This document shows positions 8,639-40,673 of a DNA stretch of 64,000 nt, piece after piece. Below the pieces are notes generated by a model. The model worked only from the letters and a program-made list of their open reading frames with translations, was not told where the DNA came from and searched no databases. The translations under genes and the position numbers were made by a program. Source of the DNA: Porticoccaceae bacterium LTM1 (GTDB lineage Bacteria; Pseudomonadota; Gammaproteobacteria; Pseudomonadales; Porticoccaceae); assembly GCA_030252795.1 (NCBI GenBank), contig CP127080.1, forward strand, positions 2,249,501-2,313,500, read 5' to 3'. Numbering within the stretch: the first letter of the stretch is position 1; every line of letters starts with the position of its first letter.

Positions 8639-8679
8639 TTTTATACTCCTATCTTGATTGATCCATAACAGTTAATTAT

Positions 8680-8740
8680 GAAGCCGTGGCTTTTTTTGAC
8701 GGCTTCGTATATTTGTGCTCATAACTTTCTTTTTATGAGC
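8680..8740. repeat. Two adjacent perfect inverted repeats at the array boundary
   Basis: GAAGCCGT...ACGGCTTC (8680-8706, 8-bp stem, 11-base loop) is followed ten bases later by GCTCATAA...TTATGAGC (8717-8740, 8-bp stem, 8-base loop). They lie in the AT-rich stretch between the first cassette gene and the narX side. They could be transcription terminators, a decayed attC or a relic of attI. The remainder of 8639-8774 shows nothing else. Confidence 0.55.
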
Positions 8741-8774
8741 TACTTTTTCTTTATATTCAATATGTTATCTGTAC

Positions 8775-9041: not shown

Positions 9042-9107
9042 TACAAGCGCTACCCCAAAAAGATGGGTGCGCTTGATGTTGAGCAATTTCCGGGTTTCCC
9101 CGGTTTG

Positions 9108-10952: not shown

Positions 10953-11061
10953 GTCTCTGTGGAGATACCTCTAAAAACCTATGAGTATAGTCATCTGACT
11001 CTTATTCACAACAAATGCTTCCCTCCCCCCCACAGTACAAGGGGACATGACTTTATGCGAC

Positions 11062-11077
11062 TACCTACAAAGTGGTA
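11062..11077. promoter_or_regulatory. NarL/NarP 7-2-7 operator between narX and narG
   Basis: TACCTAC-AA-AGTGGTA: inverted heptamers TACCTAC and TACCACT, two bases apart. The second matches TACYYMT exactly. It lies 127 bp before the narG start. Another heptamer-like sequence (GGAGGTA, reverse TACCTCC) follows at about 11100. No FNR box with correct spacing was found in 10953-11203. Confidence 0.75.
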
Positions 11078-11203
11078 TCCCCCCAAAATATGCCCATTTG
11101 GAGGTACTTGTGGGCGTAGTAGCCATCCTCTTTAATCGAGCCATCGCTATGTGCAGCGCGCTTTTTAAAGCGGTGCCATCCGAACATTCAGGAGGAGTCA
11201 GGC

Positions 11204-14200
11204 GTGAGTCACTTTTTAGACAAACTGCAGTTTTTTAAGAGAAATGAGACCTCGTTTTCCGACGGTCATGGTGTTACCACCGATGAGAACCGTGGCTGGG
11301 AAGACGGCTATCGCCGTCGCTGGCAGCACGATAAAACCGTACGCTCAACTCACGGGGTTAACTGTACGGGTTCGTGCAGCTGGAAAATCTACGTCAAGGA
11401 CGGTCTGGTTACCTGGGAAACCCAGCAAACCGATTACCCGAGAACCCGTCCAGACCTGCCCAACCATGAGCCACGCGGTTGCCCTCGGGGCGCCAGCTAC
11501 TCCTGGTATATATACAGTGCCAACCGCCTCAAGTACCCGAAAGTGCGCAAACGCCTGGTTAAACTGTGGCGCGCCGCCAAAGAGCTTCACAAAGATCCGG
11601 TAGATGCCTGGGCATCTATTGTCGAAGACCCGGCCAAAACCAAAGAGTACAAACAGCAGCGCGGCATGGGTGGCTTTGTTCGCTCCAACTGGAACGAAGT
11701 CAACGAAATTATTGCCGCCTCGAACGTCTATACCATTAAAACCTACGGCCCGGATCGGGTAACCGGTTTCTCGCCGATCCCCGCGATGTCGATGGTTTCC
11801 TACGCCGCCGGTGCACGCTATCTGTCACTGATCGGCGGCAACTGCCTGAGTTTCTACGACTGGTACTGCGACCTGCCACCGGCCTCACCGCAAATCTGGG
11901 GTGAGCAGACCGACGTTCCAGAATCCGCCGACTGGTACAACTCCAACTACATCCTGTGCTGGGGTTCCAACGTACCGCAGACCCGTACCCCCGATGCCCA
12001 CTTCCTGACCGAGGTGCGCTACAAGGGCACCAAGGTAGTGGCGATCACTCCCGACTACTCCGAGGTCGCCAAACTGACCGATCACTGGCTGGCGCCCAAA
12101 CAGGGTACTGACGCGGCTCTGGCGATGGCGTTCGGTCATGTCATCCTGAAAGAGTTCCACGTCGAGAACCCATCGGCCTACTTTACTGATTACGTACGCC
12201 GTTACACCGACTTCCCGATTCTGGTGATGCTGGAACAGGATGAGGATGGCAAGCTGCATCAGGGACGTTTCCTGCGTGCATCCGACCTCTCCGACAATCT
12301 GGGCCAGGAAAATAACCCGGAATGGAAAACCATCTGCATTAATGAGGACAGTGGTGAGTTAGCCTCCCCTACCGGCTCCATCGGTTATCGCTGGGGCGAG
12401 AAGGGCAAATGGAATATTCAGCAACTGGATGGTAAATCCGGAGCTGAAATCACCCCCAAACTGTCCCTGAAAGACGGTCACGACGAGTTGGTGAATGTCG
12501 CCTTCCCGTACTTTGGCGGTGCTGAGCACGAGTTTGGTTACTTCCAGAATACTGAGCACGACGAGGTTATCGAACGCCGCATTCCGGCCAAAAAACTCAC
12601 CCTTGCCGACGGTTCCGAGGCGCTGGTTGCTACCGTATTCGACCTGACCCTGGCCAACTACGGGGTAGCCAACGGCTACGATGATCCCAATGTCGCCAGC
12701 AGCTACGACGACGACATTCCCTACACCCCGGCCTGGCAGGAACAGATTACCGGTGTGGGCCGCGAAGACGTTATCCAGATTGCCCGCGAGTTCGCCGACA
12801 GCGCCAACAAAACCCGTGGTCGCTCAATGATCATCGTCGGTGCCGGCATGAACCACTGGTACCACATGGACATGAACTACCGCGGCCTGATCAACATGCT
12901 GATGATGTGCGGCTGTATCGGCCAGAGCGGTGGCGGCTGGGCGCACTACGTGGGTCAGGAAAAACTGCGTCCGCAAACCGGCTGGCAACCGCTGGCGTTT
13001 GGCCTGGACTGGCAGCGCCCGCCTCGCCATATGAACGGCACCTCGTTCTTCTACAACCACTCCAGCCAATGGCGCTACGAAAAACTGCATATGACCGAAG
13101 TGGTGTCGCCGCTGGCCAATAAAGAAAAGTGGGCCGACTCCATTATCGACTACAACACCCGCGCCGAGCGCATGGGTTGGCTGCCGTCGGCACCGCAATT
13201 GGGTACGAACCCGCTGCAACTGTGCAAAGAAGCCGCCGAGAAAGGTGTATCACCGCAAGAGTATGCCGTGGAGCAACTGAAGTCCGGCGCCCTGAAGTTT
13301 GCCTGTGAAGATCCGGACAACCCGCAGAACTACCCGCGCAATATGTTTATCTGGCGCTCCAACCTGCTGGGTTCTTCCGGTAAAGGCCACGAGTACATGC
13401 TGCGTCACCTGCTCGGTACCAAACACGGCCTGATGGGCAAAGATTTGGGCGAAAGCGGCGACGAAAAACCGAAAGATGTGGTTTGGCACGATGACGCGCC
13501 GGAAGGCAAAGTGGATCTGCTGGTAACCCTGGACTTCCGTATGTCCACCACCTGTCTGTACTCGGACATCGTGTTGCCCACTGCTACCTGGTACGAAAAA
13601 GACGACCTCAACACCTCGGATATGCACCCGTTTATTCACCCGCTGAGTGCTGCGGTAGACCCGGTGTGGGAGTCCCGTTCCGACTGGGATATTTTCAAGG
13701 GCATCGCCAAACAGTTCTCCAAAACCGCAGAGGGACACCTTGGCGTAGAACAGGACCTGGTAACCCTGCCTATTCTCCACGACACCCCTGCCGAGCTGGC
13801 TCAACCGTTTGGTGTGAAAGCCTGGTGGAAAGGCGAATGCGACCTGATTCCGGGTAAAACCGCACCCAGTATGATTCCGGTGGAGCGCGACTACCCCAAC
13901 ACCTACGCCCGCTTTACCTCGGTAGGCCCGTTGCTGGAAAAACTCGGCAATGGCGGTAAAGGCATCAGCTGGAATACCGAAAAAGAGGTCGAATTCCTCG
14001 GTGAACTGAACCGGCGCCATATTGAGGAAGGTGCCAATAAAGGACGCCCCAAAATCGAAACCGCCATTGATGCCGCCGAAGTTATTCTGTCGCTGGCACC
14101 GGAAACCAATGGTCAGGTTGCAGTAAAAGCCTGGGCGGCGCTGAGCGAAATTACCGGGCTGGACCACACCCATCTGGCCAAGCCGAAAGAAGAGGAGAAG

Positions 14201-24659: not shown

Positions 24660-27317
24660 TCACTTCACTGAGGAAGATTGTGCCTGGGCTTTCCCTGAGG
24701 TTTTCTGCTTCTCACGCCAGGCAGCAAATGCCGCTTTTTCTTCCGCCAGCTGCTTGTCTCTTTCACGAGCTGCCGTGGCGGCCACTTCACTGGATTTTTG
24801 CTGCTCTTTAAACTTCCGCCAACGCTTGTATTGCTCTGCCTTTGCCGGATTTGGATCCTCATAACCGGTCAGCCAAAAACTGAACCAATCCACATTCTGC
24901 TCCTGCATAGCCAGCCGTTCCCAGGGTTTGACCAGGTTATGTGGCGCAGCCATCAACATAACCATTTCAACCGGCTTTTCCTGGCGACGAAGCATGGCGT
25001 AGACATCAAACCAATGCATGACCTGGCCAGTGTTGTGCTGCTGCATGCGGATCGGTGTTTTCACTCGATCCAGGTGCATAGATGGATCCTGGGAAACCCA
25101 GCTCTCCAAACCTTCACCCCATGGTTGCGCATTATAAAATGGCTCAATATAGGCCATACCACCCAACTGCAGACCATAAAAACTACTGTACCCCCACAGT
25201 GTCATGTTAAACGCATCTACAATGTTTGCTGCAGCAAAATCATAATCCGAAAACGTGACGATATGCTGCACTTCGTGACCGGTCGCGCTAAAGCCTTGCA
25301 GCCCTACCTTATTGCGCAATATCAACCCATCCTCGTCCATCTGGTCAATGAGTGCCTCAATACCCGACTGGAGGACCATACGGGAAAAATATGGAGGGAC
25401 AGGCTTGTCGGGAACCTGAACTACTATCAAATCTCGATTAACCAGTGCCTGGGCCGCATAACCGCCAATCATACCCGGACCTTCAATCAAAAATTGATGC
25501 TTATCAAAACCATGGGTCTGGATTACCAGAGGGTAGCGCTTGCCTGCCTTGTAATTCGGCGGATAGACAATACCCGCTTCCCATTCGATTTCATTCTTAT
25601 CTTTCCAACGGTAAACTTCAGTTTCACCAAAACTCAGCTCACGAAATTGGGGGTTTAAATCGGTGACAATCCTTTCATTTCCAGTTACTGCATCGCGAGC
25701 CAGCAAGTTGGGCGGGACATTCAAATCTTCTGCCACTTCCACCATCAAACGCTGCTCCGGCATAACCTCATTAGAAAAAGCTTTCCACTGCCCCTCTATT
25801 TTCTGGTAGTGGTTTACCTTCCGTCCGGATTCAATGCTTACAATGCCCTCAGAAGAGACTCCGAGATAACTAAACCCTTTGGATAGATCACCGTCTAACC
25901 GATGCTCCATAACCGTCGTGATTTTTTTACTATCAAGGTGGTACTCAACAGTCGCAGGCACTTGACGTCGATTCTCCAAAACCTGTGGATCCTTTACATC
26001 AAGGGGCAAAAAAGTATTAGCGACAATCACTGTCTGGTCATCCAACCAGTGAACACCAAACTTATATCCACCCAACAAATATCCCGAAGGTACCGGAGAA
26101 CCAAAGAGCGGACGCTCTTCACCACTATCCAGATCTACCACCACATATTGAAAAATGGATGTAAGCTCGTCACTACCTTTCCTTGAACTGTAAGTTACAT
26201 TCCAATAATCGCCGAAATTGGGGTATTCCTCTGGCCAGCTTTCCTGTAATTCGTTACGAAGCAGTTCACGTGTGGCAATAATTTTGTTTCCACTTGGGGA
26301 AAAATACACATCGTCATACCAGAGGCGCTCCGCCACACTGAATTCAAGTGGCAAGGCTTTAGCCGGTTTGCCCGGTCGCTGAACGTAGTAATGATGCCTG
26401 TATGGAATCGGCCGCTTGGGTTTATGCAACTCGTTAAGATCTCTCGCACTGGTTATAGAAACGCCTTTTTTATCCACAATGAAATATTGAGCATTCAAAT
26501 TTTCAGCATCTACACGATCAGCAGGTGTACTCTTGCGCTTGTCTGGCGCCGATTTAATTTTTTTATCATCTGATTCACTGGAATGTGAGGCCTTATTCAA
26601 AGGTTTTCTCGCCGTATACAACAGAGTACCATTTGAGTGAAGCTCAAAAGCCACTATCCTTTCGGGGTGCGAAGTCATTCGCTCCAGCTTCTTGCTTCGA
26701 ATATCCAAGGTGTATACCTGAGGCCCCAATTCAGGGTCATCCTCACCAAGAAAGGCCAGGGTTCGATTGTCAGCCAACCAGCGTAAGTTGTTGACCGCTC
26801 CGCTATTTGACCCGGAGGAGAATGTAGCACTGAAAAATGGCTTCGGACGCCTTACCCCCACATCCTTAGCTTTCGAAGAGTGTGCCACATCTTCTACGGA
26901 CTTCAGTGAAGAAGTGTTTTTATCACCATTTTCCGCCGCATTAACATAGCTCAAAACTTCAGACGTACTATAAACCTGCAAATCAAAGTCATTTTTCCCT
27001 GATTCAACATTCGGCTTCCTGACGACTATCACGAAATACTCGCCATCAACAGAAAACGTTGGTCGAGACATTGACCTTACAATGGCATCAGTAGATGCAT
27101 CAGGGTGCGCCAGAGTTGCCATGGACACTGCATCCGCGGCAGTTAACCGGCGAACCGTATCCTTCGCCTCCGCATGTATGCTTAGTAATGTCAGGACTCC
27201 CAGAAGTAGCCATTTTGAAACAGAAAACACCATATTGATTCCTTGAGAATATTTATGGAAATATATTCGTCGAACTCCTTTTTTAAAGGTATTCGAAATA
27301 TCTATTGTTGGAAACAT
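24660..27317 (-). CDS. S9 (prolyl oligopeptidase-type) peptidase resembling lasso-peptide isopeptidases
   Basis: Large secreted or periplasmic serine peptidase, 885 aa from ATG 27317 (GGAGGAG upstream). A second start at 27233 with AAGGA gives a more normal signal peptide (VSKWLLLGVLTLLSIHAEA). After an N-terminal segment RRLTAADAVSMATLAHPD comes a beta-propeller region and a C-terminal alpha/beta hydrolase. The nucleophile is probably Ser677 in GFSATGHE (normally G-x-S-x-G-G) and the His is His793 in APHNLVKPWERL. The ending NVDWFSFWLTGYEDPNPAKA recalls Atxe2-type isopeptidases, as does the neighbouring TonB/FecIR set, but no lasso synthesis genes exist here. A charged helical tail (about 840-885) is extra. 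Last gene of the peptide island. Confidence 0.8.
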   Translation of the reverse strand: MFPTIDISNTFKKGVRRIYFHKYSQGINMVFSVSKWLLLGVLTLLSIHAEAKDTVRRLTAADAVSMATLAHPDASTDAIVRSMSRPTFSVDGEYFVIVVRKPNVESGKNDFDLQVYSTSEVLSYVNAAENGDKNTSSLKSVEDVAHSSKAKDVGVRRPKPFFSATFSSGSNSGAVNNLRWLADNRTLAFLGEDDPELGPQVYTLDIRSKKLERMTSHPERIVAFELHSNGTLLYTARKPLNKASHSSESDDKKIKSAPDKRKSTPADRVDAENLNAQYFIVDKKGVSITSARDLNELHKPKRPIPYRHHYYVQRPGKPAKALPLEFSVAERLWYDDVYFSPSGNKIIATRELLRNELQESWPEEYPNFGDYWNVTYSSRKGSDELTSIFQYVVVDLDSGEERPLFGSPVPSGYLLGGYKFGVHWLDDQTVIVANTFLPLDVKDPQVLENRRQVPATVEYHLDSKKITTVMEHRLDGDLSKGFSYLGVSSEGIVSIESGRKVNHYQKIEGQWKAFSNEVMPEQRLMVEVAEDLNVPPNLLARDAVTGNERIVTDLNPQFRELSFGETEVYRWKDKNEIEWEAGIVYPPNYKAGKRYPLVIQTHGFDKHQFLIEGPGMIGGYAAQALVNRDLIVVQVPDKPVPPYFSRMVLQSGIEALIDQMDEDGLILRNKVGLQGFSATGHEVQHIVTFSDYDFAAANIVDAFNMTLWGYSSFYGLQLGGMAYIEPFYNAQPWGEGLESWVSQDPSMHLDRVKTPIRMQQHNTGQVMHWFDVYAMLRRQEKPVEMVMLMAAPHNLVKPWERLAMQEQNVDWFSFWLTGYEDPNPAKAEQYKRWRKFKEQQKSSEVAATAARERDKQLAEEKAAFAAWREKQKTSGKAQAQSSSVK

Positions 27318-27518: not shown

Positions 27519-29648
27519 TCAGGAAGCCACTTTCGATGGAGGCGTTAGCTCGATAAGCTTGGCGCCACGCAACTCCAATACACGATCTGCTGATCGAACA
27601 GTTTCGTGCCGATGGGCAACGATAATCCGGGTTATATTCAGTGCCTTTATTGCAGAGTTCACCACTGACTCCGTCATTGAATCCAAGTGACTGGTAGCTT
27701 CATCCAAAATCAAAATCTTTGGCTGCCTATAGAGGGCACGCGCCAGTAGTACGCGCTGCTTTTGGCCGCCAGAAAGACTACTGCCCATATCGCCAATTAG
27801 GGTGTTGTACTGCATGGGCATTTGTTCAACGCTCCGATCAATCGCTGCCAACCTGGCACATTCGAAAATTCTGTCTCTGTCTGGATTTGGATCAAAAAAA
27901 GAAATATTGTCCGCAATCGAACCAGATAACAGTTGATCATCCTGGGTTACTGCGGCGATATTGCGTCGATAATTAGCCAGACCCACCGAAGAAATATTTT
28001 TTTCATCCACCAAAATCTCACCTTCCGTGGGCGTTAACAATCCGAGCAATAACTTCAGGAATGTTGTTTTTCCACAGCCGGAAGGCCCCACTATCGCAAC
28101 TGACTCTCCAGCATGAATGGTAATATTCAGATCTTTAATTATGTGTGGCAGACCCTCACCATAGCGATACGATAAATTTCGGCTTTCTATTGCTCCATCA
28201 ATCACACAGGTCGATAGCGGCTGATCATCCAGATTCGGTTCTTCTTCAGTAAGAGCGATATCTGACAAGCGACTAAGGTGTAATTCCAGCATTTTGAACT
28301 CAATACCTTTTTCAATAAGCCCAAATGCCTTGCCAATAAAATTATCTTTGTAAGCAACAAAGGCCATTAACATGCCGATTGACATAGCATTGTCAAAAAT
28401 CTGCATTGAGCCAAGGTATAACACCGCGAGGGTTTCAACGCCTGCAAGAGTGGCATTAATTACACCAAAATGAATATTGAGTTTTTTCAGTCTTATTCCG
28501 ACATTGATGGTATCGGCAAAGTAGTTCTGCCAAAGGCTCAATCGGTCATTTTCCCGTCCGAATATTTTAATACCCTGCACCGCTCGAACCGATTCCATAA
28601 AATTGGAATTCTGTTTTGCCGCCGCCACAATCGATTCTTCAGACAAAGACCTCATGGGTCGGTACATAGCAATTCGCACCAACGCATAGAACACAACCGC
28701 AGCCAGAACCACAAAGGTTAGCAACGGGCTGTACACAAACATCATGATTAGTGTCAACAGCATCATAATGCCGTCCACTAATGCGGCAATTAATCCGGTG
28801 GTTAATAATTTTTGTATTGTAGACAGTGAACCAAACCGGGATACGATATCCCCTATATGTCGCTTACCGAAATAATCCCCTGGCAATCGCAATAAATGCC
28901 TGAACATAGATACACCGAGCTGAAAACTCAGCATATTCCCCAAGTGCATTACGACGTATTCTCGAAGCGTGCTTGTGGTAATGCGCATAATCATTAGCAT
29001 CGAAAAACCAATTGTTAGCACCTTCAATAATTCTAGGTCACGGCCGACAACCACATCATCTATCACCAATTGTGAATAATATGGCGCAGCAATGGTGAAC
29101 AACTGCAATAACAGAGAGACAAGCAATATCTGAAGTAGCGCACGTTTCAAGCCAACTGTTTTACGAAAAAAACCGCTTAACTTAAGCTTCCTGCTATCTT
29201 CTTTTTCTTCAAAATCTGACGTTGGCGTCAGCTCCAGAGCCACTCCTGTAAAATGTCTGCTCACTTCGGACAAGGGTATATAGCGAACCCCCATGGCAGG
29301 ATCGTGAATTGTAATTCCCTTTTTGTCTGCGGATTTTAATACTACAAAATGGTTTAAATCCCAATGCAAAACACAAGGCATCTTCAATTCAGGAATTTGC
29401 TCAAGCTCCAGCCGTAAAGCCCGGCAAGCGAATTGCAACTTGCTTGCCATTTGCACCAACAATTCGAGGGTCGTGCCCTGCAAAGAGGTGGCGTACCGGC
29501 CTCGCAAAGTACCTAAATCAACTTTATGTCCATAATAATTGCAAATCATGGCCAGACACGCATGACCACATTCTGCTGCCTCAGACTGCAAAACAACGGG
29601 AAGTTTATTACTGCTGAACAACAGGATTTTGCTTATATCCGCCGCCAT
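27519..29648 (-). CDS. C39 peptidase-containing ABC exporter (double-glycine peptide exporter)
   Basis: Inner-membrane protein of 709 aa that cleaves double-glycine leaders and exports the cargo. The N-terminal C39 domain has the catalytic Cys27 (LQSEAAECGHACLAMI), His100 (HWDLNHFVVL) and Asp116 (HDPAMG). Six membrane helices follow (about 160-440). The ATPase domain has Walker A GPSGCGKTT, signature LSGGQKQRVLLARAL and Walker B ILILDEATSHLD. The start is ATG 29648, one base after the stop of the HlyD-type gene; the longer frame overlaps that gene and is discarded. All catalytic residues are intact, so it should process the GG-leader protein encoded nearby. Confidence 0.95.
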   Translation of the reverse strand: MAADISKILLFSSNKLPVVLQSEAAECGHACLAMICNYYGHKVDLGTLRGRYATSLQGTTLELLVQMASKLQFACRALRLELEQIPELKMPCVLHWDLNHFVVLKSADKKGITIHDPAMGVRYIPLSEVSRHFTGVALELTPTSDFEEKEDSRKLKLSGFFRKTVGLKRALLQILLVSLLLQLFTIAAPYYSQLVIDDVVVGRDLELLKVLTIGFSMLMIMRITTSTLREYVVMHLGNMLSFQLGVSMFRHLLRLPGDYFGKRHIGDIVSRFGSLSTIQKLLTTGLIAALVDGIMMLLTLIMMFVYSPLLTFVVLAAVVFYALVRIAMYRPMRSLSEESIVAAAKQNSNFMESVRAVQGIKIFGRENDRLSLWQNYFADTINVGIRLKKLNIHFGVINATLAGVETLAVLYLGSMQIFDNAMSIGMLMAFVAYKDNFIGKAFGLIEKGIEFKMLELHLSRLSDIALTEEEPNLDDQPLSTCVIDGAIESRNLSYRYGEGLPHIIKDLNITIHAGESVAIVGPSGCGKTTFLKLLLGLLTPTEGEILVDEKNISSVGLANYRRNIAAVTQDDQLLSGSIADNISFFDPNPDRDRIFECARLAAIDRSVEQMPMQYNTLIGDMGSSLSGGQKQRVLLARALYRQPKILILDEATSHLDSMTESVVNSAIKALNITRIIVAHRHETVRSADRVLELRGAKLIELTPPSKVAS

Positions 29649-29649
29649 G

Positions 29650-30909
29650 TCACACCCTTCCCTGCAGGCTGTACAGGGGATCAAGTAACCACTCCCATAA
29701 CGTGCGCTTGTCCAGTACGATATCTGCCTCAAGTAAAATCCCAGATTCCAGCGGGTATTTTTCACCATAGGCAAACACAAATTGCTGATCCAGCTGAACC
29801 ACTACCTTGTAAACAGGCTCCTGCACTCCCAGCGGATCGTGAGTTAATTCATTTGGCGCGTAAAGGGACTTGGCGATATCCAAAATCTCCCCCCCGTAAA
29901 GGCCAAATCTCTGAAAGGGGAAAGCCTCATACCGAAGCTTGACACTCTGCCCAGGCTTGATAAAACCAATGGCGCGGCTCGGTACATATATCACCGCTTG
30001 CATAGTCGACCCTTCGGGAATGATTGCTGCGAGGGGGGTCTTCAGCCCCGATGGAGCTCCCTCTGAAACCTGTATACCTGTTACCACACCACTTCTGGGT
30101 GCTTTAATCACCTGCCTTTTATCAGCTTGATTCCTTAGTATTCGTTGATCAATTTCGTGCAACTGATGCTGAACATCGGCAGTACGTTGATCTACCGAAT
30201 TGTCAATTTGCGCCAATTCGGCCTGATAGTCTGACAACTGAGAACGCCCTTGCAGCAATTGCTGATCAATCTTCAAAAGCTGTTTTTTCTTTTCGAGATA
30301 GCTTTCGTGATAGCGTAAATATCTAGCTTGAGAAATCAGCTTTTTTTCCACAAGGACCTTATAGTCATTTTGTGTCTTCTCAGCCATATCCTGACTTTCC
30401 AGATAAAGTTTTCGTTGATCTTCCAAGTGCACCAGCTCATCCCTGGAAGAAGCAATCTTGTCTTCAAGACGTTTTTTTTCAGACTTTCGAAATTCTTCTA
30501 ATTTCGCCACCTTTTTCTCAAGATTTAACCTTTCCTGTAGAAGGGTCGCTCCCAGCCCCTCCAAAACAAAACCACTTTCACCAATATAATTATCCGAATA
30601 CACGGAAAATAGCGGTTCGTCCTTAACTACCCTGTCACCATTCCGAACATGAATCCTCTCAAATACCCCAGGGGTGAACGAAAATATTTTCGTAACCCCC
30701 TTATCCGGACAGACATACCCTTTCACCGATTCTTTTCGCTGATAATCGAACGAACATAAAAACACACAAACAACAACTACAAACGTTACAATCGCACCGG
30801 TAAAATATTTGAATCTCAGCGGTGGAATCAGGAGGCACTGCCCCAGCAAACCTTCTTTTTTAGCATCCAGAACTTCGTCCCGAAACAGAGTTTTCTCTTC
30901 CTTTCTCAC
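29650..30909 (-). CDS. HlyD-family membrane fusion (periplasmic adaptor) protein
   Basis: Adaptor of 419 aa for the C39 ABC exporter, bridging the inner membrane to an outer-membrane channel. It has one N-terminal membrane helix (about 36-52), a lipoyl-like half (PGVFERIHVRNGDRVVKDEPL), a long coiled coil (about 130-240, rich in K/E/L/Q) and a second lipoyl half with a beta-barrel (IKAPRSGVVTGIQVSEGAPSG). Start is GTG 30909; no ATG is available and the ribosome binding site is weak. Similar to the MFP partners of microcin V and colicin-type exporters. A TolC partner is not encoded nearby. Confidence 0.92.
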   Translation of the reverse strand: MRKEEKTLFRDEVLDAKKEGLLGQCLLIPPLRFKYFTGAIVTFVVVVCVFLCSFDYQRKESVKGYVCPDKGVTKIFSFTPGVFERIHVRNGDRVVKDEPLFSVYSDNYIGESGFVLEGLGATLLQERLNLEKKVAKLEEFRKSEKKRLEDKIASSRDELVHLEDQRKLYLESQDMAEKTQNDYKVLVEKKLISQARYLRYHESYLEKKKQLLKIDQQLLQGRSQLSDYQAELAQIDNSVDQRTADVQHQLHEIDQRILRNQADKRQVIKAPRSGVVTGIQVSEGAPSGLKTPLAAIIPEGSTMQAVIYVPSRAIGFIKPGQSVKLRYEAFPFQRFGLYGGEILDIAKSLYAPNELTHDPLGVQEPVYKVVVQLDQQFVFAYGEKYPLESGILLEADIVLDKRTLWEWLLDPLYSLQGRV

Positions 30910-30980
30910 AGCTCAATCCATTCAACGATCAAAACTCAAAAAAGGGAGGCAGTTAATGCCTCCCTCCCAGCACTAACAAC

Positions 30981-31286
30981 TTACTGTGACATATACCACT
31001 GATAAACTTCTGAATGTGCGTAATAACTGGTTAATTGCATATTATTGCCGTAGTCATTTGCACTGTAGCTCTTGTAAAAGGATGCGCCAGTTACTTCATG
31101 CTGCGCAAAAACCTGCCATCCTTGATCACTACCCATATTCCAATAGACAAACCAGGCGTCATTATCACCATCGAGATCAATATCATCCCAATGGGTATCC
31201 GGATTCCACATATCCCCACCAGATACAACGGCCACTTCAGAAGATGATAACTCTCTCATTCCTGGCTGTTTTTTTTCTAACTGCAT
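30981..31286 (-). CDS. Double-glycine leader secreted peptide (microcin-like precursor)
   Basis: Precursor of 101 aa. The leader (residues 1-24) ends MRELSSSEVAVVSGG, the classic double-glycine pattern with Leu, Val and Val at the hydrophobic positions. The predicted mature product (77 aa, starting DMWNPDTHW) has no Cys, 6 Trp, 8 Tyr, 10 Asp, 2 Glu, one Lys and no Arg: strongly acidic, unlike cationic bacteriocins. DIDLDGDND fits the calcium-binding pattern DxDxDGxxD. Start ATG 31286 has AAGGA seven bases upstream; the longer frame is rejected. Next to a C39 exporter and HlyD adaptor. No immunity gene is recognisable. It could be a signal, a metal-binding peptide or an atypical microcin. Confidence 0.85.
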   Translation of the reverse strand: MQLEKKQPGMRELSSSEVAVVSGGDMWNPDTHWDDIDLDGDNDAWFVYWNMGSDQGWQVFAQHEVTGASFYKSYSANDYGNNMQLTSYYAHSEVYQWYMSQ

Positions 31287-31474: not shown

Positions 31475-33349
31475 TTACGGTTTACTTGCACTGAAAACTG
31501 AATCACCAATGACTTGGAAAGAGAAAAATGTTAGGAATGGCATATATCGATTTATCTGAAGTTCCGAAAACTGAAGAGTTATTGTTTTATTTTTCGTGCT
31601 AGCACCTGCTATTAATCCGCCTTCAGGAATCAGCTTCGTAAAATCCCAATACGCATCGTGGCCTTTTACCTTATTGTCCGCATCAATCACTTCCATCTCA
31701 CCGATGGCGGAGTTCCACGATAATGCGCGAACAACAATCGATCCGTTGATGGTTGTATCGGAAATATTATTGAGGGTGGCATTTGCCGTAATTCGCTTAC
31801 TCCCAAAATCAAATACCACGTCCTCCATCTGAACCTCTACAAGTGGCGTAACGTCCTTGAAATTTGCCAGTGACGGTGAACCGTACGGTGCAGCCTCTAT
31901 CGGCACTGTAACTCGGGCAGTCCATACTTGGGGGATACCCGTTCGAGTATCTATCCATAGCGGGTGAAAGTTACCATCCGCATCAGCAGCCAAACCAGAG
32001 GTATGACCCAACCAGCTGGAAACAACCGATAGATTTAATTGTGAATCTGCGGGGTTGATGTTGTGTGATTTCCCCGCCCCATATCCTACGGGTGATCCCG
32101 ATAGACTTTGAATTTTTCGACCGCCCGGCACATGGTCTACCCAAACAGCAGGTTGAAATGTGTCGCCACCATCCAGGGAAGCGGTAAATCTTACACGCGC
32201 CGTCAGCTGCTGATCACCTTCGCCTCCCTCGTACCACATGATGCCCACTACACCCTGAGGATTTACCACCACATTCGGCATATATGCCCGATCACCACCC
32301 GGAACAATGCGTGGCACTGACCATGTTTTACCTTTGTCATCTGAGTGAGAGATCACCAAATGACTGGTTGATGGCACCCCCTCTAGCGAAATAACAGGCC
32401 TCGACCAAACAAGATATAGGCGGTCTTTAAAATAGTTACTACCAGGATCCAGTGCTAATTTCACTTCCCCGGAAGTATCCAGTTTGACCACATGATTGAT
32501 AGACTCTCCACCATCATCAGAAGACATAAATTTAGTGACACTTTTTCTGTCTTTATTTGTCAAGTTGTATAACCAGCCGACGGTACCATCCGACATGACT
32601 ACCATTTCAGTCAGCGTCCCCGACAGTGCACTGCCTACGCTTTTTCGCACAGACTGAAACGATTTTCCATGATCCTCGGAGTGAAACAATATGGGAAGCA
32701 TATCCCCGTGATTTCCCTGTTCATCTACCTCCTTCGTCAAATGTCCATTAATATAGACACGTCCATCGTACTCGCCTTTGGTGTTGTCAACGGCTGTATA
32801 CATACGATCAATACCGTATGAGCCGGGTGCAATTACCGGCGGAAGCCAGGTACGGCCAAAGTCTTTTGAATGATAAATATGGAGTTCGGAAGCACCTTCA
32901 TCATCTCCATCTGAGCGACTCTCTGCGGTAAAAACCATCCCGCTAATATAGATTGATCCATCACGTCCGTAGGCACATGACGGATCAGCCGCTTTCACAT
33001 CGTTTGCTCGTGAATCGATAGAAAACTCCCAGCTTTTTCCACCATCATGGGATGCATATGCCACCAGCTGGAAAGGCTCTGTCACATCACCCTTTCGACT
33101 CTCCATCATCGAAACACCTAAAAGGTGATTTGGATTTGTGGGATGAGCACACATAATTACTTCTGCATGTGCGATATTCGGCAGTGCGGCACTAACCTGA
33201 ACATTGGGTCCCACGCTGATATTTGACGTGTTGATATTTGACGAACTTATATCGGCATCAGGTTTTTTCATGGAAAGAATCACTGCCAATGCAGCGATAC
33301 CCAGAATAAATACCAGTGTTCGTTTTCTGAAAAATGACTTTTTACTCAT
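31475..33349 (-). CDS. Exported Asp-box (BNR/sialidase-like) beta-propeller protein
   Basis: Protein of 624 aa with an N-terminal signal anchor (RKRTLVFILGIAALAVILSM). Six Asp-box motifs of the S-x-D-x-G-x-T/S-W/F type are visible: SHDGGKSW, SKDFGRTW, SEDHGKSF, SSDDGGES, SDDKGKTW and SLDGGDTF, which suggests a six-bladed propeller (about 50-480). A C-terminal beta-sandwich-like region follows (about 510-620). Asp boxes occur in sialidases and many binding proteins. I see no clear Arg triad or sialidase FRIP motif, so enzyme activity is not claimed. It sits between the TonB receptor and the GG-leader gene. The start at 33349 has GAGGG upstream. Confidence 0.8.
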   Translation of the reverse strand: MSKKSFFRKRTLVFILGIAALAVILSMKKPDADISSSNINTSNISVGPNVQVSAALPNIAHAEVIMCAHPTNPNHLLGVSMMESRKGDVTEPFQLVAYASHDGGKSWEFSIDSRANDVKAADPSCAYGRDGSIYISGMVFTAESRSDGDDEGASELHIYHSKDFGRTWLPPVIAPGSYGIDRMYTAVDNTKGEYDGRVYINGHLTKEVDEQGNHGDMLPILFHSEDHGKSFQSVRKSVGSALSGTLTEMVVMSDGTVGWLYNLTNKDRKSVTKFMSSDDGGESINHVVKLDTSGEVKLALDPGSNYFKDRLYLVWSRPVISLEGVPSTSHLVISHSDDKGKTWSVPRIVPGGDRAYMPNVVVNPQGVVGIMWYEGGEGDQQLTARVRFTASLDGGDTFQPAVWVDHVPGGRKIQSLSGSPVGYGAGKSHNINPADSQLNLSVVSSWLGHTSGLAADADGNFHPLWIDTRTGIPQVWTARVTVPIEAAPYGSPSLANFKDVTPLVEVQMEDVVFDFGSKRITANATLNNISDTTINGSIVVRALSWNSAIGEMEVIDADNKVKGHDAYWDFTKLIPEGGLIAGASTKNKTITLQFSELQINRYMPFLTFFSFQVIGDSVFSASKP

Positions 33350-33430
33350 TTCATTCCCTCTTGTAAGAAATAAAAACAATAAAATACCCACCATATTCAT
33401 GGTTCTGGAGAATCCATCAGGGATGTGTTA

Positions 33431-33461
33431 GCCCGCACTTCTTTGAGAAAGAAGTGCGGGC
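33431..33461 (-). other. Perfect 13-bp stem-loop between TonB receptor and Asp-box gene
   Basis: GCCCGCACTTCTT / AAGAAGTGCGGGC with a five-base loop, six bases after the TonB receptor stop. No T-run follows on the minus strand, so it looks like an mRNA-stabilising or processing hairpin that sets different levels for receptor and downstream genes, rather than a full terminator. Confidence 0.7.
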
Positions 33462-33467
33462 ATATGG

Positions 33468-36400
33468 TTAAAAGCGTTTTGTGAAACTTACATAAAACAT
33501 GCGGCCACGGGGATCGGCCAAATTGGCATTGAATTCTGGAATAAGATCCGGTTCACCAGTTTCAAGTATGGTAACCTTGTGTTCCGGATGATCATCCAGA
33601 AGATTAAGAACACGGAATGAAACGGTACTGTCTTTCAGCCAGTCTGCCACCTGAAACAGATCACCTTCTTCCATGTTATAGGAGGCAACCAGATCAAGGT
33701 TTAAAGGCGTTTTACTTGTTCTGATTTCCGTTTGGGTTAAAAAGACGCTCGGATTTCGACTCGTCGTATCACTGGCCTTACTTGCATCAATATTGATCGA
33801 CAGCCCCCTGTTATACCAACCCAGATTGGCCGAATAGCGCAACTCCGGAATAACATAAAGGGTTCCAAAGCCAGCGTCCTTAACTACGCTCTCAACCTCT
33901 GCTCCCGGGCTGGAGACTTTATCCCATTTATCGGTATAGGCAACATTCGCATTTAAAAGGAACTCACCAATACTTGTATCGAATTTATAACGGAGTTTGT
34001 AATCAATACCGCTGACATCTAGAGACGCCAGGTTTACTGCGCGATAATCCAACACCAGATAACCAAATTCATCACGGCTAATATTATCCGGATAACGCTC
34101 TTCGTAATTAGGACCTAAGACACCTATTCTACCGTCAAAACCAGAAATCCTGTTTTCATACTCGGTTTGATGCCAGATGGCACTCAAAGACAACCCCGGG
34201 ATAAAATCCGGCTCTATCTCAATACCCGCTGAAAGTGACGAGGCAGTCTCTGGTCGTAGATCTGGATTACCTCCGCTAATTAAGGTGGATGCAGCCTCAA
34301 ACTGGCCAGTCGGAAAACCATTCACGTCAACTACCGGAATGGTAAAGGTAAAAAGCGGTAGACTTGAAAAAACATTAGGTGGAATCAGTGCCTCCTTGGG
34401 AGTGGGCACCACATAGGAGGTGGCGTGATTGACCTTAAATCTAATCTGGGAATCGGGGCTCCAAATCATTCCCAATGACCAGGTGGAATCACTGCCATAT
34501 TGGTCATAAGAATCATAGCGACCTGATCCTGTTACCGTCAGTTTCTCAATCATGGGAACAGCATTATTTTCCCCAACTATAGGAACTAGAATTTCTGCAA
34601 ATGCCGAATGTTGCGAACGACTCACTTCTGTTGCTGTATAAGCCCACTGTGGAAGGCTTGAAGAGCCTTGCCCCAACCCAGTCTGTGATACGATGACATC
34701 CGCCGCGCTAATGAGAGTCTCTTCGCGCCACTGGGCTCCAACAGCCAAGTGAACATCCCCCCCGGGTAATCTGAAGAGCGGACCATTCAGGCTTACCTCC
34801 GCTGTACTTTCCTTATTGGTAGACTGTACTGGCCGCGGGGGCCCCACTAACGCTGCCAGTTGTTCTGGTGTGTTGACAGCGTCGATATCGCCACCCAGCA
34901 AATTAAGCTCACCTTCTTCGATCAGGCTAAGAACATTAGCAGCTCCTGTACCAAAATAATCGAATAGCTGGATGGGCTCATTAAAATACAGAGAATCAAT
35001 TTTGTCCCTCGACTGACCGATAGATAAATTCCAATTCCAATCATCAGCGAAAGAACCATCCAATCCCAGGTTCCAGCGAAAAACGCGACTTTCAGTCTGA
35101 TAGTGTCTATCCGGCAGGCTCGGAATAGACCAGTAGATACCGATATCTGTTTCAAAAGGGTTGACCGGATGGGATGCGAGCAGGCTCATAGGTAATTCGA
35201 ATCCGCCCGTGGCTGCATATGTATCTTGCGCTGAATAGTAAATATCGCCGGTCAAGGTGATATCACTATTCCATAGAGAAAGCTCCTGATCAAAACCGAG
35301 CCGTAATGTATTACGATCTTTCGCTGGTAATAAACTGTTGCCCGAATCCGCATTATAGTTAATCGGCGCATCCAGCGCTGTAAAGTCAGCTGCTGTCAGG
35401 TTGCTGCCATCCTGCCCAATAGGTAGTACTGTTTGCGTGACCGCAACTACACCCTGAGATGTTGGCGTCAAGCCCAGTGCTGCAAGTTCAGATGGAAGAT
35501 AATTCTGCCCGCTATACTGGTAAAAAAGTGGTTGACTATTGAAAGTACCTAACGAACGTGCGATTTTTGCTGGCGCCAAAAATTGACTCCAAGCAACCCT
35601 TTCTGGCCGCTCCGCAAAATCTAGGTTACTACTGCTGAAGTGCTCAAAGTTGACGCGCGCCCTGCCGCTATCCCAAGAGAAGCCGCCGGACAAGGTGAGA
35701 ATATGTTCTTCAAACCCGCCATCCTGAGGCTTACCGAAGTCATAGCCCAGCTCTAATCCTTCGTAATCTTTTTTGAGAATAATATTGACCACACCACCAA
35801 CGGCATCTGACCCATAAACTGAAGAGGCGCCATCCAGCATGATTTCCACTCGATCGACTGAACTGAGGGGAATACCTGAGATATCCGATATACCGCCAAA
35901 AATGCCGGATTTTCCGATACGCCGACCATCGATCAACACCAATGTGGACTCACTGCCCAAGCCACGCAAGTTAATACTGGAGCCGCCGGTCAGGTTCTGT
36001 GCGCTGTTGAACGAACCGCGAACCGCTCCTCCAACTTCACTGGCGCCAAACATATTTTGTGGCAGCTGACGAAGTGCGCGCTCCAGAGTCACCTCACCGG
36101 TTGCACGAAGTTCATCGATATCCAGAGTGATAAGGTTAGATGCCAGTTGACTGGAAGCTTGTGCAATGCGACTACCGGTTACAACTATCTCTTCTACTTC
36201 TTGGGACTGCTTATCTGATTTTTTATTATCAACCTCATCTTCTTTTATGATCACTGAATCAGAAGACAGAAATTCATACACCAAGCCACTTCCTGCCAAC
36301 AGGGCATCCAGGGCTGAGGCTAAAGTAAATTCACCTTTCAGAGCAGGAAGTTCTAAATCAACACCAACTCCATCTGGAAGAACAATATGAGTATGTGTTT

Positions 36401-36563
36401 GTGCGGCTAAATCCAGAATCGCCTTGCCAGCGTTCTGGCCTTTGAGGTCCAACATGATTTTTTCAGGTTCTGCGAGCAAATCTGCCGACAGTGTCAGCGC
36501 TATCGCCGATGCAATACCAATCATCAAGCGATTTTTTTTGAACCCTCTTCGTTGACTTTTCAT
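33468..36563 (-). CDS. TonB-dependent receptor with N-terminal STN signalling domain (island 1)
   Basis: Outer-membrane receptor of 1031 aa. Signal peptide (about 1-32), then a secretin/TonB short N-terminal domain (about 36-105; LDLKGQNAGKAILDLAAQ, FTLASALDALLAGSGL). A TonB box region follows (EEIVVTGSRI), then the plug (INLRGLGSESTLVLIDGRR, DAVGGVVNIIL) and a beta-barrel ending in Phe (SFTKRF). The STN domain marks a transducer that signals to a FecR-type protein when ligand binds, and the fecR/fecI pair lies directly upstream. Ligand unknown; the nearby secreted peptide or its fragments are candidates. The 1031-aa length and the R-x-I-G plug type match the large peptide/carbohydrate receptor group rather than siderophore receptors. 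Confidence 0.93.
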   Translation of the reverse strand: MKSQRRGFKKNRLMIGIASAIALTLSADLLAEPEKIMLDLKGQNAGKAILDLAAQTHTHIVLPDGVGVDLELPALKGEFTLASALDALLAGSGLVYEFLSSDSVIIKEDEVDNKKSDKQSQEVEEIVVTGSRIAQASSQLASNLITLDIDELRATGEVTLERALRQLPQNMFGASEVGGAVRGSFNSAQNLTGGSSINLRGLGSESTLVLIDGRRIGKSGIFGGISDISGIPLSSVDRVEIMLDGASSVYGSDAVGGVVNIILKKDYEGLELGYDFGKPQDGGFEEHILTLSGGFSWDSGRARVNFEHFSSSNLDFAERPERVAWSQFLAPAKIARSLGTFNSQPLFYQYSGQNYLPSELAALGLTPTSQGVVAVTQTVLPIGQDGSNLTAADFTALDAPINYNADSGNSLLPAKDRNTLRLGFDQELSLWNSDITLTGDIYYSAQDTYAATGGFELPMSLLASHPVNPFETDIGIYWSIPSLPDRHYQTESRVFRWNLGLDGSFADDWNWNLSIGQSRDKIDSLYFNEPIQLFDYFGTGAANVLSLIEEGELNLLGGDIDAVNTPEQLAALVGPPRPVQSTNKESTAEVSLNGPLFRLPGGDVHLAVGAQWREETLISAADVIVSQTGLGQGSSSLPQWAYTATEVSRSQHSAFAEILVPIVGENNAVPMIEKLTVTGSGRYDSYDQYGSDSTWSLGMIWSPDSQIRFKVNHATSYVVPTPKEALIPPNVFSSLPLFTFTIPVVDVNGFPTGQFEAASTLISGGNPDLRPETASSLSAGIEIEPDFIPGLSLSAIWHQTEYENRISGFDGRIGVLGPNYEERYPDNISRDEFGYLVLDYRAVNLASLDVSGIDYKLRYKFDTSIGEFLLNANVAYTDKWDKVSSPGAEVESVVKDAGFGTLYVIPELRYSANLGWYNRGLSINIDASKASDTTSRNPSVFLTQTEIRTSKTPLNLDLVASYNMEEGDLFQVADWLKDSTVSFRVLNLLDDHPEHKVTILETGEPDLIPEFNANLADPRGRMFYVSFTKRF

Positions 36564-36775: not shown

Positions 36776-37861
36776 TTATTTGGAATTTTTAGGGGAAACT
36801 ATATGAATACGATCAAACTGATGAACAACCTTAATAGGCAGGGCTTGTTCAAGAGCAGACAATCCACCACTGATATCATCAATATTTATGGACGCAAAAA
36901 CATTTAAATCCATCAATGAAGAATCCTGTATCAGGATCTTCTTGGCGGAGTAGCGATTGAGCTCCATAATCACTTCATTAAAGGGAACATTCTCAAACCG
37001 CAAAACACCAGACTTCCAATCAATCAGGCGAGCCATATCAACAGGCCTGAACGCTGTCAGGGATTGATGCTCCACACTGAATCTGGCCGCCATACCCGCC
37101 TTAAAACGCCGCTGAGCCGATTCTTTAACAAGCACCTCTTGGCCAATTTCGGCAATTGCATCTAACGCCGATGCGGAAGCAGGTTCATTCTCTCTGTGAA
37201 CGGTTACAACCCCCTCTACAACAGCCAATGTAAAACCATCTGCCTGTTTTGAAAGATTGAATTCGGTTCCCAATACAGTTACCACGCGGCCATCCAATTT
37301 CACGCTGAATGGCCGATCAGGGTCGGCAGCAACATCAAAATAAGCCTCTCCTCGTCCGAGGATCACAAGCCTTTCATTCCCCTCTTCCATATCGACCAGT
37401 AACTGTGTACCGGTATTCATTGTGACTACAGAGCCATCAGGCAATGTAACTACTTTTTGCTCACCTGTTCTGGTTACATACCGGGATATGCTCCCGTCAT
37501 CAATTGATGTTCCCAATGGATACAGCACAAATGAAACCACGATAACCAGACAAGCAGCAGCCAAAAGCCAGGGCCACGCTCCCCAATGCGCAGACCCTGG
37601 CTGGCCGCTTCCAGCACCGACCGATAACTCACTCTTTTTATTATCCTTTTCTACCAATGAGAGTAAGAATGGGTCATCTGCCAATTCATCAATTGCGTCG
37701 TCTGCATAGAGTATTTCCAAAAAAAGAGCTTCATACTCCACAGACCGTGATCGATCCTTGAGAATACGCTCAACCTTGTTGTCGTCCAGCTCTCCGGAAA
37801 ACATCCGTGCCACATCAGCTGACGCCAGTTGTTCAATATTTTTCCACTTTGAAATGTCCAT
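36776..37861 (-). CDS. FecR-type transmembrane anti-sigma/sensor protein (island 1)
   Basis: Inner-membrane regulator of 361 aa. The cytoplasmic N-terminal region (1-95) holds the sigma factor. One membrane helix follows (WPWLLAAACLVIVVSFVLYP, about 97-116), then the periplasmic FecR domain (LPDGSVVTMNTGTQLLVD, GRGEAYFDVAADPDRPFSV, VLGTEFNL). A C-terminal STN-like domain (FNEVIMELNRYSAKKILI, LSALEQALPIKV) should contact the receptor's signalling domain. Its ATG overlaps the sigma-factor stop by one base (TAATG), a coupling that keeps the two in balance. Confidence 0.93.
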   Translation of the reverse strand: MDISKWKNIEQLASADVARMFSGELDDNKVERILKDRSRSVEYEALFLEILYADDAIDELADDPFLLSLVEKDNKKSELSVGAGSGQPGSAHWGAWPWLLAAACLVIVVSFVLYPLGTSIDDGSISRYVTRTGEQKVVTLPDGSVVTMNTGTQLLVDMEEGNERLVILGRGEAYFDVAADPDRPFSVKLDGRVVTVLGTEFNLSKQADGFTLAVVEGVVTVHRENEPASASALDAIAEIGQEVLVKESAQRRFKAGMAARFSVEHQSLTAFRPVDMARLIDWKSGVLRFENVPFNEVIMELNRYSAKKILIQDSSLMDLNVFASINIDDISGGLSALEQALPIKVVHQFDRIHIVSPKNSK

Positions 37862-38451
37862 TATCTTTCTACCTTCTGCGTCTCACTCACTGCCCTGCGA
37901 ATAATTACCAACGCTTTCTGTATGTACTTTTCTACCTGCTTTACCGAAACTCCCATATCTTTGGCGATTTCTTTGTATGTTCTCTGTTTGAACCGATTGA
38001 GAATAAAAGCCTGCCGGGTATTGATGTTCATACCAGCGATTACATTGCGTATCTGGCTTAACTCCTCTCGAACCAGATTGATTCGCTCCGGCGTATGATC
38101 AAAGTGCACCTCCTCAGATTGCATACGCAATTTTTCTCCGTCCAGATAGCGATTACGGACGGTTTTGTGGCGTTCTATATTGATGGCCAGGTTATTGGCC
38201 GCCCGAAACAGGTACGACAAGCTACCTTCTTCTCCTATAGGCAAAAGCTCGGCAAGATTCTCGATCTTGGCCAACCGGGCAAACACCTCCTGAACAATAT
38301 CATCCAGCTCCTGACTGATGCCCAGCCGGGCTCGCAGAAACTTGCGAAGCGCCACATGGTGCTCTTCGTAGAGCCTGTTCAGCGCCTGTTGCTGCGTTTC
38401 ACGAGGATTGCCTCGGAATTCAACCACATTTGTTCTCTTTTCTAGCGTCAA
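37861..38451 (-). CDS. ECF sigma factor, FecI-type (island 1)
   Basis: RNA polymerase sigma factor of 196 aa. Region 2 (about 25-95) shows LYEEHHVALRKFLRARLG, LDDIVQEVFARLA and LSYLFRAANNLAIN. Region 4 (about 130-190) shows NINTRQAFILNRFKQRTYKEIA followed by the helix-turn-helix GVSVKQVEKYIQKAL. Partner of the adjoining FecR-type protein; expected to drive the TonB receptor and probably its own gene, since both share a promoter element. The start is uncertain: TTG 38451 is the longest option and GTG eight codons later is the main alternative; neither has a strong ribosome binding site. Confidence 0.92.
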   Translation of the reverse strand: MTLEKRTNVVEFRGNPRETQQQALNRLYEEHHVALRKFLRARLGISQELDDIVQEVFARLAKIENLAELLPIGEEGSLSYLFRAANNLAINIERHKTVRNRYLDGEKLRMQSEEVHFDHTPERINLVREELSQIRNVIAGMNINTRQAFILNRFKQRTYKEIAKDMGVSVKQVEKYIQKALVIIRRAVSETQKVER

Positions 38452-38522: not shown

Positions 38523-38883
38523 CTAGAATGTAAAACTCAGGAAAAACCTAACGCAGCAAGCCCGGGATGTGCCCATAGAACGGACGGTCAAGCCAATGAA
38601 AGATGACTTGCAAGATGATGTTTATAAGCTCAGGCAATATAGAAAGTGTTTTTTATCGCAAAGCGGTCCGTCAATCAGCGGCTGTTTGGTAGTAATTGAT
38701 GTGGCGTGATAGAGAGAAGTTACTGGTAGTGGGAATGAATAGGGAAAAACTCGTATCGTCAGACTGTGAATCATCCCTGTCGACAGTCTGTCATTGCTCT
38801 TCGACCTCAGAATTTCATCTCCATTGCACAATAAATCGACGAAGCAACTACACTATCTTTACTCACAATCTGCGAGCCCCGTC

Positions 38884-39684
38884 ATGAACAACCAAGCTTC
38901 CCAATTTATCGGCTCTATTCCAGAGAACTACGACAAGGGGCTGGTGCCCCACATTTTTGACGACTTTGCCAATGATCTTGTCAGCCTGATTGTCAGCCAC
39001 AACCCAAGAGCGGTTCTGGAGCTGGCAGCCGGTACCGGTGTTGTTACCAGAAAACTACGTGACGCTCTAACTGAGCACTCCACAATAGTCGCAACCGATT
39101 TAAACCCTCCAATGCTGAATGTGGCCCAAGCCAAGTTCTCTCCCGATGAACAGGTCAGATTTGAAGAGGTAGATGCAACCTTATTACCTTACCAGGACGA
39201 CAGTTTCGACTTGATTACCTGTCAATTTGGCGTAATGTTCTTTCCGGACAAGGAGGCTTCGTATATTGAAGCTCATAGAGTTTTAAAATCGGGTGGACGA
39301 TACATATTCAACACTTGGGGTTCCTGGGAAAGAAATGCTTTTGCCGAATTGGCACACAACGCCGTCAGTGATTTTTTCCCCGAAGATCCACCACAGTTTT
39401 ATAAAGTACCTTTCAGTTATCACGATATGGAAGCCATTCAACAGTCGCTACTCTGCTGTGGCTTTGATGATGTTCAATTCCACCCTACTCCTAAGACTGT
39501 TAGAATTTTATCTGCAGATCTATTAGCCAAAGGGCTTGTTTTTGGTAATCCGTTATATGACGAAATAGTCAATCGCAACGGTTCGCCTGAAGCTGTTTAT
39601 CAGGCTCTGAAAACCATGATAGAAAATACACTGGGCGATCAGTTACGACTGTTTGCGACTACTATTGAGGCGTTAAAGAGATAG
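38884..39684 (+). CDS. Class I SAM-dependent methyltransferase
   Basis: Cytoplasmic protein of 266 aa with a Rossmann methyltransferase fold. Motif I is VLELAAGTGVVTRKL, the acidic ribose-binding residue is in VATDLNPPML, and later come FDLITCQFGVMFFPD and LKSGGRYIFNTWG. It belongs to the UbiE/Methyltransf_11 type; the substrate is unknown. ATG 38884 is chosen because the protein then starts MNNQASQFIGSIPENYDKG, as related proteins do; the ribosome binding site is weak. It faces away from the sigma factor and precedes the M14-type gene by 74 bases, so the two may be one unit between the two TonB systems. Confidence 0.88.
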   Translation: MNNQASQFIGSIPENYDKGLVPHIFDDFANDLVSLIVSHNPRAVLELAAGTGVVTRKLRDALTEHSTIVATDLNPPMLNVAQAKFSPDEQVRFEEVDATLLPYQDDSFDLITCQFGVMFFPDKEASYIEAHRVLKSGGRYIFNTWGSWERNAFAELAHNAVSDFFPEDPPQFYKVPFSYHDMEAIQQSLLCCGFDDVQFHPTPKTVRILSADLLAKGLVFGNPLYDEIVNRNGSPEAVYQALKTMIENTLGDQLRLFATTIEALKR

Positions 39685-39758
39685 CATATTTGACGTTTGA
39701 ATACTCAGAAGATATTCCAAACAATCTACCGCCCTCTGAAATAAATCAAGAGACCTTT

Positions 39759-40673
39759 ATGACTACCAATTCCAGCACATATTCTGTTGGCACACCCGGC
39801 ACTCCCTGGGGTGATAATGAAAAAGCACAATGGCTCGCCAACCAATCCGTCAAACGCTCTTATCAAGATGAAGTGTTAAGCAAACTGGAACCGCTGAGTC
39901 AACACTTTGTTGTTGAACAATATGGCGCGTTATCCTGTGATCCCGCCCGCTATCCACTACATATCGTAAAAACCCGAAACTGGAATAACAGCAAGCCCAC
40001 TATATTGGTTACCGGTGGGGTGCATGGTTATGAAACCAGTGGCGTTCAGGGCGCAATTCGATTTTTGGAGACCGTCGCACGGGATTATGAACAGCACTTT
40101 AATGTGGTTGTAGCACCCTGCGTCAGCCCATGGGGATATGAGACGATTAACCGTTGGAATCCCAAAGCACTTGACCCTAATCGCTCTTTTTATTCGAATA
40201 GCCCTGCTGAAGAGGCTGCTTTTTTAATGGCCGGTATCAGCAAGCTTTCCGCCAATTTCGCTCTGCATATCGATCTGCATGAGACCACCGATACTGACAA
40301 TAGCGAATTTAGGCCTGCCCTGGCGGCACGGGATGGCATTAAACAGAAAAACTGGAATATCCCCGACGGTTTCTACCTGGTGGGCGACACTGAAGATCCG
40401 CAACCTGAATTTCAAAAAGCTGTTATTGAGTCAGTGGAAAAGGTTACTCATATCGCACCACCGGATGACAACGGCCAATACATTGGTGCACCCCAGGAGC
40501 AATGGGGCGTGATTAATTATTCGGCAAAAAAACTGGGCCTGTGTTTTGGCATGACGAACGCCAGGTTCAGGACCACCACCGAGGTTTACCCTGACAGCCC
40601 GAACGTGGATGATGAGAACTGCATTCAGGCTCAGGTGGCTGCTGTGCGAGGTGCGCTGAAATTTTTGATTTAG
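39759..40673 (+). CDS. M14-type zinc metallohydrolase (AstE/aspartoacylase-like)
   Basis: Soluble protein of 304 aa. The zinc motif H-x-x-E is in TGGVHGYETSGVQGA and the third ligand His is probably in LHIDLHETTDTD; RWNPKALDPNRSF carries the substrate-binding Asn-Arg. These are features of the succinylglutamate desuccinylase / aspartoacylase and carboxypeptidase group, which hydrolyse amide bonds of acylated amino acids or peptides. The substrate is not readable. The start at ATG 39759 has AGAG upstream. The position between two peptide-type TonB systems makes a role in processing imported peptides conceivable, but this is inference. Confidence 0.85.
   Translation: MTTNSSTYSVGTPGTPWGDNEKAQWLANQSVKRSYQDEVLSKLEPLSQHFVVEQYGALSCDPARYPLHIVKTRNWNNSKPTILVTGGVHGYETSGVQGAIRFLETVARDYEQHFNVVVAPCVSPWGYETINRWNPKALDPNRSFYSNSPAEEAAFLMAGISKLSANFALHIDLHETTDTDNSEFRPALAARDGIKQKNWNIPDGFYLVGDTEDPQPEFQKAVIESVEKVTHIAPPDDNGQYIGAPQEQWGVINYSAKKLGLCFGMTNARFRTTTEVYPDSPNVDDENCIQAQVAAVRGALKFLI

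Follow-up and report, generated by a model that had tools for sequence, protein, structure and literature searches.

A GG-leader peptide gene located between a TonB-dependent receptor and a peptidase of lasso-isopeptidase fold in Porticoccaceae bacterium LTM1

We analysed a stretch of 64,000 nucleotides from Porticoccaceae bacterium LTM1 (contig CP127080.1, positions 2,249,501 to 2,313,500), referred to here as the window, which contains a gene for a small precursor peptide with a Gly-Gly (GG) leader. This gene belongs to a run of eight consecutive genes on one strand, from 38451 down to 24660 (-), in the order FecI-type sigma factor, FecR, TonB-dependent receptor (TBDT), BNR propeller protein, precursor peptide, HlyD, C39-peptidase ABC exporter and S9 peptidase. 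The sigma factor and FecR genes overlap by 1 base, and the remaining gaps measure 212, 67, 188, 71, 1 and 201 bases (with ATG 29648 as the exporter start). The first-pass annotation, made from the sequence alone, was silent on this operon context, which is the important part of the case presented here.

The precursor (30981-31286, minus strand) has 101 residues. Translation of 31286-30981 (-) gives a 24-residue leader, MQLEKKQPGMRELSSSEVAVVSGG, which ends in Gly-Gly (31286-31215) and is followed by a mature part of 77 residues (31214-30984); the ATG is preceded at 7 nt by AAGGA. A strict pattern (GG leader, reachable ATG and short tail) occurred only this once across all six reading frames of the window, and was found in 3 of 200 order-1 Markov windows (mean 0.02). 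The mature peptide contains 12 Asp/Glu, one Lys/Arg, three His, six Trp, eight Tyr and no Cys, with an isoelectric point of 4.05, an average mass of 9195.7 Da and a grand average of hydropathy (GRAVY) of -0.92. Thus, the GG leader and the acidic, Trp/Tyr-rich, Cys-free product described in the first-pass annotation were borne out by translation, and so was the reported loop DIDLDGDND, which matches DxDxDGxxD. When the residues of the mature part were shuffled 100,000 times, the motif arose in 66 cases, so composition does not account for the loop. EF-hand-like calcium loops have DxDxDG with an acidic residue at position 12. In the peptide this position is Phe, and the loop is therefore not a canonical EF-hand; Pfam gave no match up to E 10. 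Calcium-dependent folding, which had also been proposed, may occur: the loop is non-random, but it has the Phe, Pfam, PHROGs and PDB sequence searches gave no matches, and the predicted structure is of low confidence (predicted local distance difference test, pLDDT, of 58). Foldseek gave 0 matches at E 0.001 for this model, which is too weak to read. Calcium is a reasonable candidate ligand of the loop.

Between the stop codon of the peptide gene and HlyD lies a terminator-like hairpin (30940-30968, minus strand) with a 12-pair stem and a T run; its folding z-score is -3.06 and an equally good fold was seen in 1 of 200 shuffles. Such a hairpin would be expected if the peptide is made in excess over the exporter, which is presumably its purpose. 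The HlyD-type membrane fusion protein (29650-30909, minus strand; 419 aa) matches PF13437 with 49.3 bits, type_I_hlyD being under its cut-off. It is followed by a peptidase-containing ABC exporter of 709 aa from ATG 29648 (27519-29648, minus strand; PF03412, PF00664 and PF00005), whose C39 domain carries QSEAAECG, HWDLNHF and HDPAMG, which we take to be the Cys, His and Asp motifs of this domain.

Homologues of the peptide were sought in several collections, and none was detectable overall. Among 97 relatives (own genome included), matches outside the own genome were weak (best E 0.018), and inspection of three such loci (L002, L005 and L010) revealed a GG precursor in none of them. There was no match in plasmids, none in genome contigs by exact 8-mers (a method that misses distant relatives), and none in Pfam, NCBIfam, PHROGs, PADLOC or PDB sequence searches. 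A match in a viral contig (L021) fell inside a 406-aa open reading frame (ORF) of a phage-like contig with no GG precursor and was taken as chance. The lack of a convincing homologue in 96 other genomes, plasmids and genome contigs is what could be said for the view that the ORF is non-functional; we regard this as highly improbable, given the ribosome-binding site, the full leader motif beside a fitting exporter and the hairpin right past the stop.

With regard to the exporter, 20 of 321 class genomes, source genome included, matched at E 1e-110. Of 20 matches outside the source genome, 13 (in twelve genomes) were inspected, the other seven being weaker matches at 31-38% identity. HlyD stood beside the exporter in 13/13 loci, while matches to S9, TBDT or FecR were found near it in 0/13, several of these loci running into contig ends. 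GG precursors by the strict pattern were present in three of them (L063, L067 and L071), two of which, L067 and L071, encode Gly/Ala-rich, microcin-like products; the leader in the window, MRELSSSEVAVVSGG, is similar to MRELNVNEIKQVNGG of L067. The third locus, L063, holds at 8600-13400 a GG precursor (...GGASAYGWTSVFPRGIPWPELF...) together with a radical-SAM protein, HlyD and a C39 exporter, and its precursor is a candidate modified peptide.

The GG leader, the adjacent C39-peptidase ABC exporter and the membrane fusion protein are all shared with class II microcins of the microcin V type. The peptide could therefore be an unusual member of this class, which would kill target cells after entry through their TonB receptors, the S9 peptidase of the producer degrading any peptide that re-enters. 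Its size (9.2 kDa) and the microcin-like cargo of the related exporters in L067 and L071 would also fit. However, the product is acidic, Trp/Tyr-rich and polar (GRAVY as given above), unlike the L067 and L071 cargo, and a receptor, a sigma switch and a peptidase lie in the run of the producer. In a published account of this class (PMC10233263), class II microcins are described with a five-part gene set and an immunity protein of 51-216 aa. The sigma/anti-sigma pair and receptor fall outside that gene set, and no adjacent immunity gene of that size was found: the gaps of the run hold no ORF of 51-216 aa, the longest being 40 aa and on the opposite strand, although the S9 peptidase could substitute. 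The earlier statement that no immunity protein is visible thus holds. On balance, we consider a microcin quite unlikely.

Upstream of the peptide gene, the FecI-type extracytoplasmic function (ECF) sigma factor (37861-38451, minus strand) matches PF04542 and PF08281, with TIGR02937 above cut-off, and the FecR-type anti-sigma/sensor protein (36776-37861, minus strand) matches PF04773 with 72 bits. The receptor, TBDT1 (33468-36563, minus strand; 1031 aa; PF00593 and PF07715), has an N-terminal STN-like signalling domain, whose match of 27.9 bits is slightly below the cut-off of 28.4. A receptor with such a domain, FecR and FecI are also the elements of iron-carrier uptake with FecI/FecR surface signalling (PMC9249621); in contrast, the presumed ligand in the window is a ribosomal, apparently unmodified peptide that is encoded and exported by the same run.

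The last gene of the run encodes the S9 peptidase (24660-27317, minus strand). In a sequence search, the top solved structures for this protein were AtxE2 (E 8e-22) and then SpI-IsoP (E 1e-11), the two lasso-peptide isopeptidases of known structure. An AlphaFold model built on 21 sequences (mean pLDDT 77.7) gave the same ranking: AtxE2 (Z 33.5, 490 residues, root-mean-square deviation 3.9) and SpI-IsoP (Z 32.9, 535 residues, deviation 4.1) came ahead of the next structure, an S9 carboxypeptidase (Z 26.4), and Foldseek also placed them first. On the basis of this model, the protein has the propeller and hydrolase of the lasso isopeptidase fold with a Ser-His-acid arrangement, in which Ser677 and His793 are certain and Asp771 is the probable acid by alignment. 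We aligned 78 S9 rows, comprising 75 of the 80 loci described below (ORFs <600 aa were dropped), two others and the window; Ser677 and His793 were conserved in 78/78, and Asp or Glu occupied the acid column in 69/78. A hydrophobic stretch near the start, ending in AEA, looks like a signal peptide, and a periplasmic location is likely. The first-pass annotation had preferred a surface or signal peptide to a pore former, and this part of it is favoured by the FecI/FecR/TBDT set, by the S9 peptidase, which probably carries a signal peptide, and by the fact that no immunity gene was seen.

A sigma factor, an anti-sigma factor, a receptor and an isopeptidase-fold S9 protein together with genes for a secreted peptide are also what characterizes the isopeptidase lasso clusters (astexin/AtxE2, sphingopyxin I/SpI-IsoP and rubrinodin). 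In a review (PMC9266682), TBDTs and sigma/anti-sigma pairs are presented as constant partners of lasso isopeptidases, and the function of lasso peptides whose clusters contain an isopeptidase is called enigmatic; the window has the receptor with its sigma/anti-sigma pair. In contrast with these clusters, the precursor in the window carries a GG leader, and its product of 77 residues is predicted to be exported via the C39 exporter and HlyD. A search of the complete source genome for the lasso B protein (PF13471) gave nothing at E 0.001, and no lasso C (asparagine-synthetase-like) protein was present among the ten proteins scanned from the cluster and its neighbourhood, the whole genome not having been searched for lasso C.

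We then scanned genome contigs with the S9 protein and obtained 395 matching stretches with 338 relatives, of which the best 80 were used for the counts given here. A TBDT was immediately upstream of S9 in 35/80 loci, and 25 of these 35 had FecR and the sigma factor as well; it should be noted that many of the 80 loci run into contig ends. Lasso B or C matches occurred in 21/35 TBDT-S9 loci (19 of 27 when loci with less than 5 kb beyond S9 are left aside), and the module is therefore often beside secreted-peptide genes. In the S9 tree, built from the 78 rows described above, the window protein belongs to a group of 27 rows supported by an approximate likelihood ratio value (SH-aLRT) of 99, of which 16 rows were labelled lasso, labels that were set by hand and that for some loci reflect one weak B or C match only. 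The nearest S9 proteins by tree path (L073 and L074, from one Woeseiaceae genome) belong to modules without lasso matches. None of the 80 S9 loci has a C39 exporter or HlyD, and the strict pattern detected a GG precursor in none of them. One locus, L086 (2887-14559), contains FecI, FecR, a TBDT and two S9 peptidases, then a radical-SAM protein, a neighbour that hints at further cargo classes of the receiver module.

These distributions also bear on the possibility that the run consists of two unrelated units: a FecI-FecR-TBDT-S9 scavenger of foreign peptides such as lasso peptides, and an independent exporter whose peptide may be a surface or matrix protein. Of the 27 TBDT-S9 loci with 5 kb or more beyond S9, eight have no lasso matches, none of the 13 exporter loci inspected has the module, and the gene order in the window departs from the usual TBDT-S9 pair. 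On the other hand, the peptide and exporter genes are flanked by TBDT and S9 and share their orientation, and we judge two independent units to be unlikely.

The explanation that we favour, at a little under an even chance, is that the cell secretes the small acidic peptide, binds it again through the receptor of the run, senses it and cleaves it in the periplasm; the gene content suggests re-uptake of the own peptide rather than use as a toxin only. The C39-ABC exporter would act with HlyD and with a TolC from another site in the genome, removing the leader behind Gly-Gly and releasing the 77-residue product, and the hairpin would keep peptide mRNA above exporter mRNA. Outside the cell the peptide would fold, perhaps around Ca2+ or another ligand at DIDLDGDND. 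The TBDT of the run would then bind it, and the STN domain would report occupancy via FecR to the FecI-type sigma factor. The peptide, alone or carrying cargo, would be imported into the periplasm, where the S9 peptidase would cut it and so end the signal or free the cargo. The genes and their order, the leader, the conserved catalytic residues, the fold match of the S9 protein and the hairpin are observed, whereas we infer the action of receptor, sigma pair and peptidase on the peptide from where the genes lie and from how the module is arranged in other loci.

Several observations weigh against self-recapture. Its main weakness is that the case is carried by one locus: no second genome with the combination of peptide, exporter and module was found. 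Since no homologue of the peptide was found, there is no conservation evidence, and confidence in the peptide model is low. In homologous loci the TBDT usually adjoins S9, whereas the window has five genes between them, the same departure in order that was counted above for two units. The S9 protein scored 136.1 bits against NF033523 (lasso isopeptidase), for which the curated cut-off is 400, and is therefore not filed as that equivalog. Separate transcription is possible, given the 201 bp gap that precedes S9 and the hairpin that precedes HlyD. In addition, a second set of FecI, FecR and a large TonB-dependent receptor lies directly upstream of the run (46257-40844, minus strand), and regulation may be shared between the two.

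A narrower form of self-recapture would make the product a ribosomal, unmodified mini-protein of siderophore- or pheromone-like function, which would be secreted, loaded with an ion or another ligand at the acidic loop, recaptured with surface signalling and destroyed by the periplasmic peptidase. This form is unlikely; if true, the lasso-type module would be a general receiver of secreted peptides, and lasso peptides would be just one of several kinds of cargo. Self-recapture as such would link GG-peptide export to self-uptake and give such receivers a wider role. The same receiver module around a plain gene-encoded peptide would be a simpler test case than lasso peptides, because ordinary recombinant expression would yield the ligand, and its recapture, its cleavage and the signalling could each be measured separately. 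No published description of this combination was found in open-literature titles and abstract openings, which is no proof of its being unpublished.

The locus looks acquired, because the GC content at about 26-46 kb (0.40-0.48) is low relative to the flanks (0.48-0.58 in the 2-kb bins at 18-26 kb and 46-52 kb), none of the eight genes was present in the 20-kb stretches around both flanking genes in 2/2 sibling species, and the S9 protein at E 1e-40 was found in 1 of 390 order genomes, the source genome itself. The remaining member of the run, a BNR/Asp-box propeller protein of 641 aa (31475-33400, minus strand; PF13088 and PF02012), has six Asp boxes and a hydrophobic N-terminal stretch; its homologues numbered 0 in 228 other class genomes and 0 in plasmids, and PDB matches to TALE repeats were rejected as only 16 residues were covered. 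The gap between TBDT1 and this gene (33401-33467, minus strand) contains a strong-looking hairpin, CCCGCACTTCTTT-CTC-AAAGAAGTGCGGG, with no clear T run. TBDT1 and the neighbouring receptor are 38% identical over the first ~350 residues. Finally, a methyltransferase gene and an AstE/AspA-M14-like gene lie between both receptor sets (38794-40673, plus strand), in the opposite direction.
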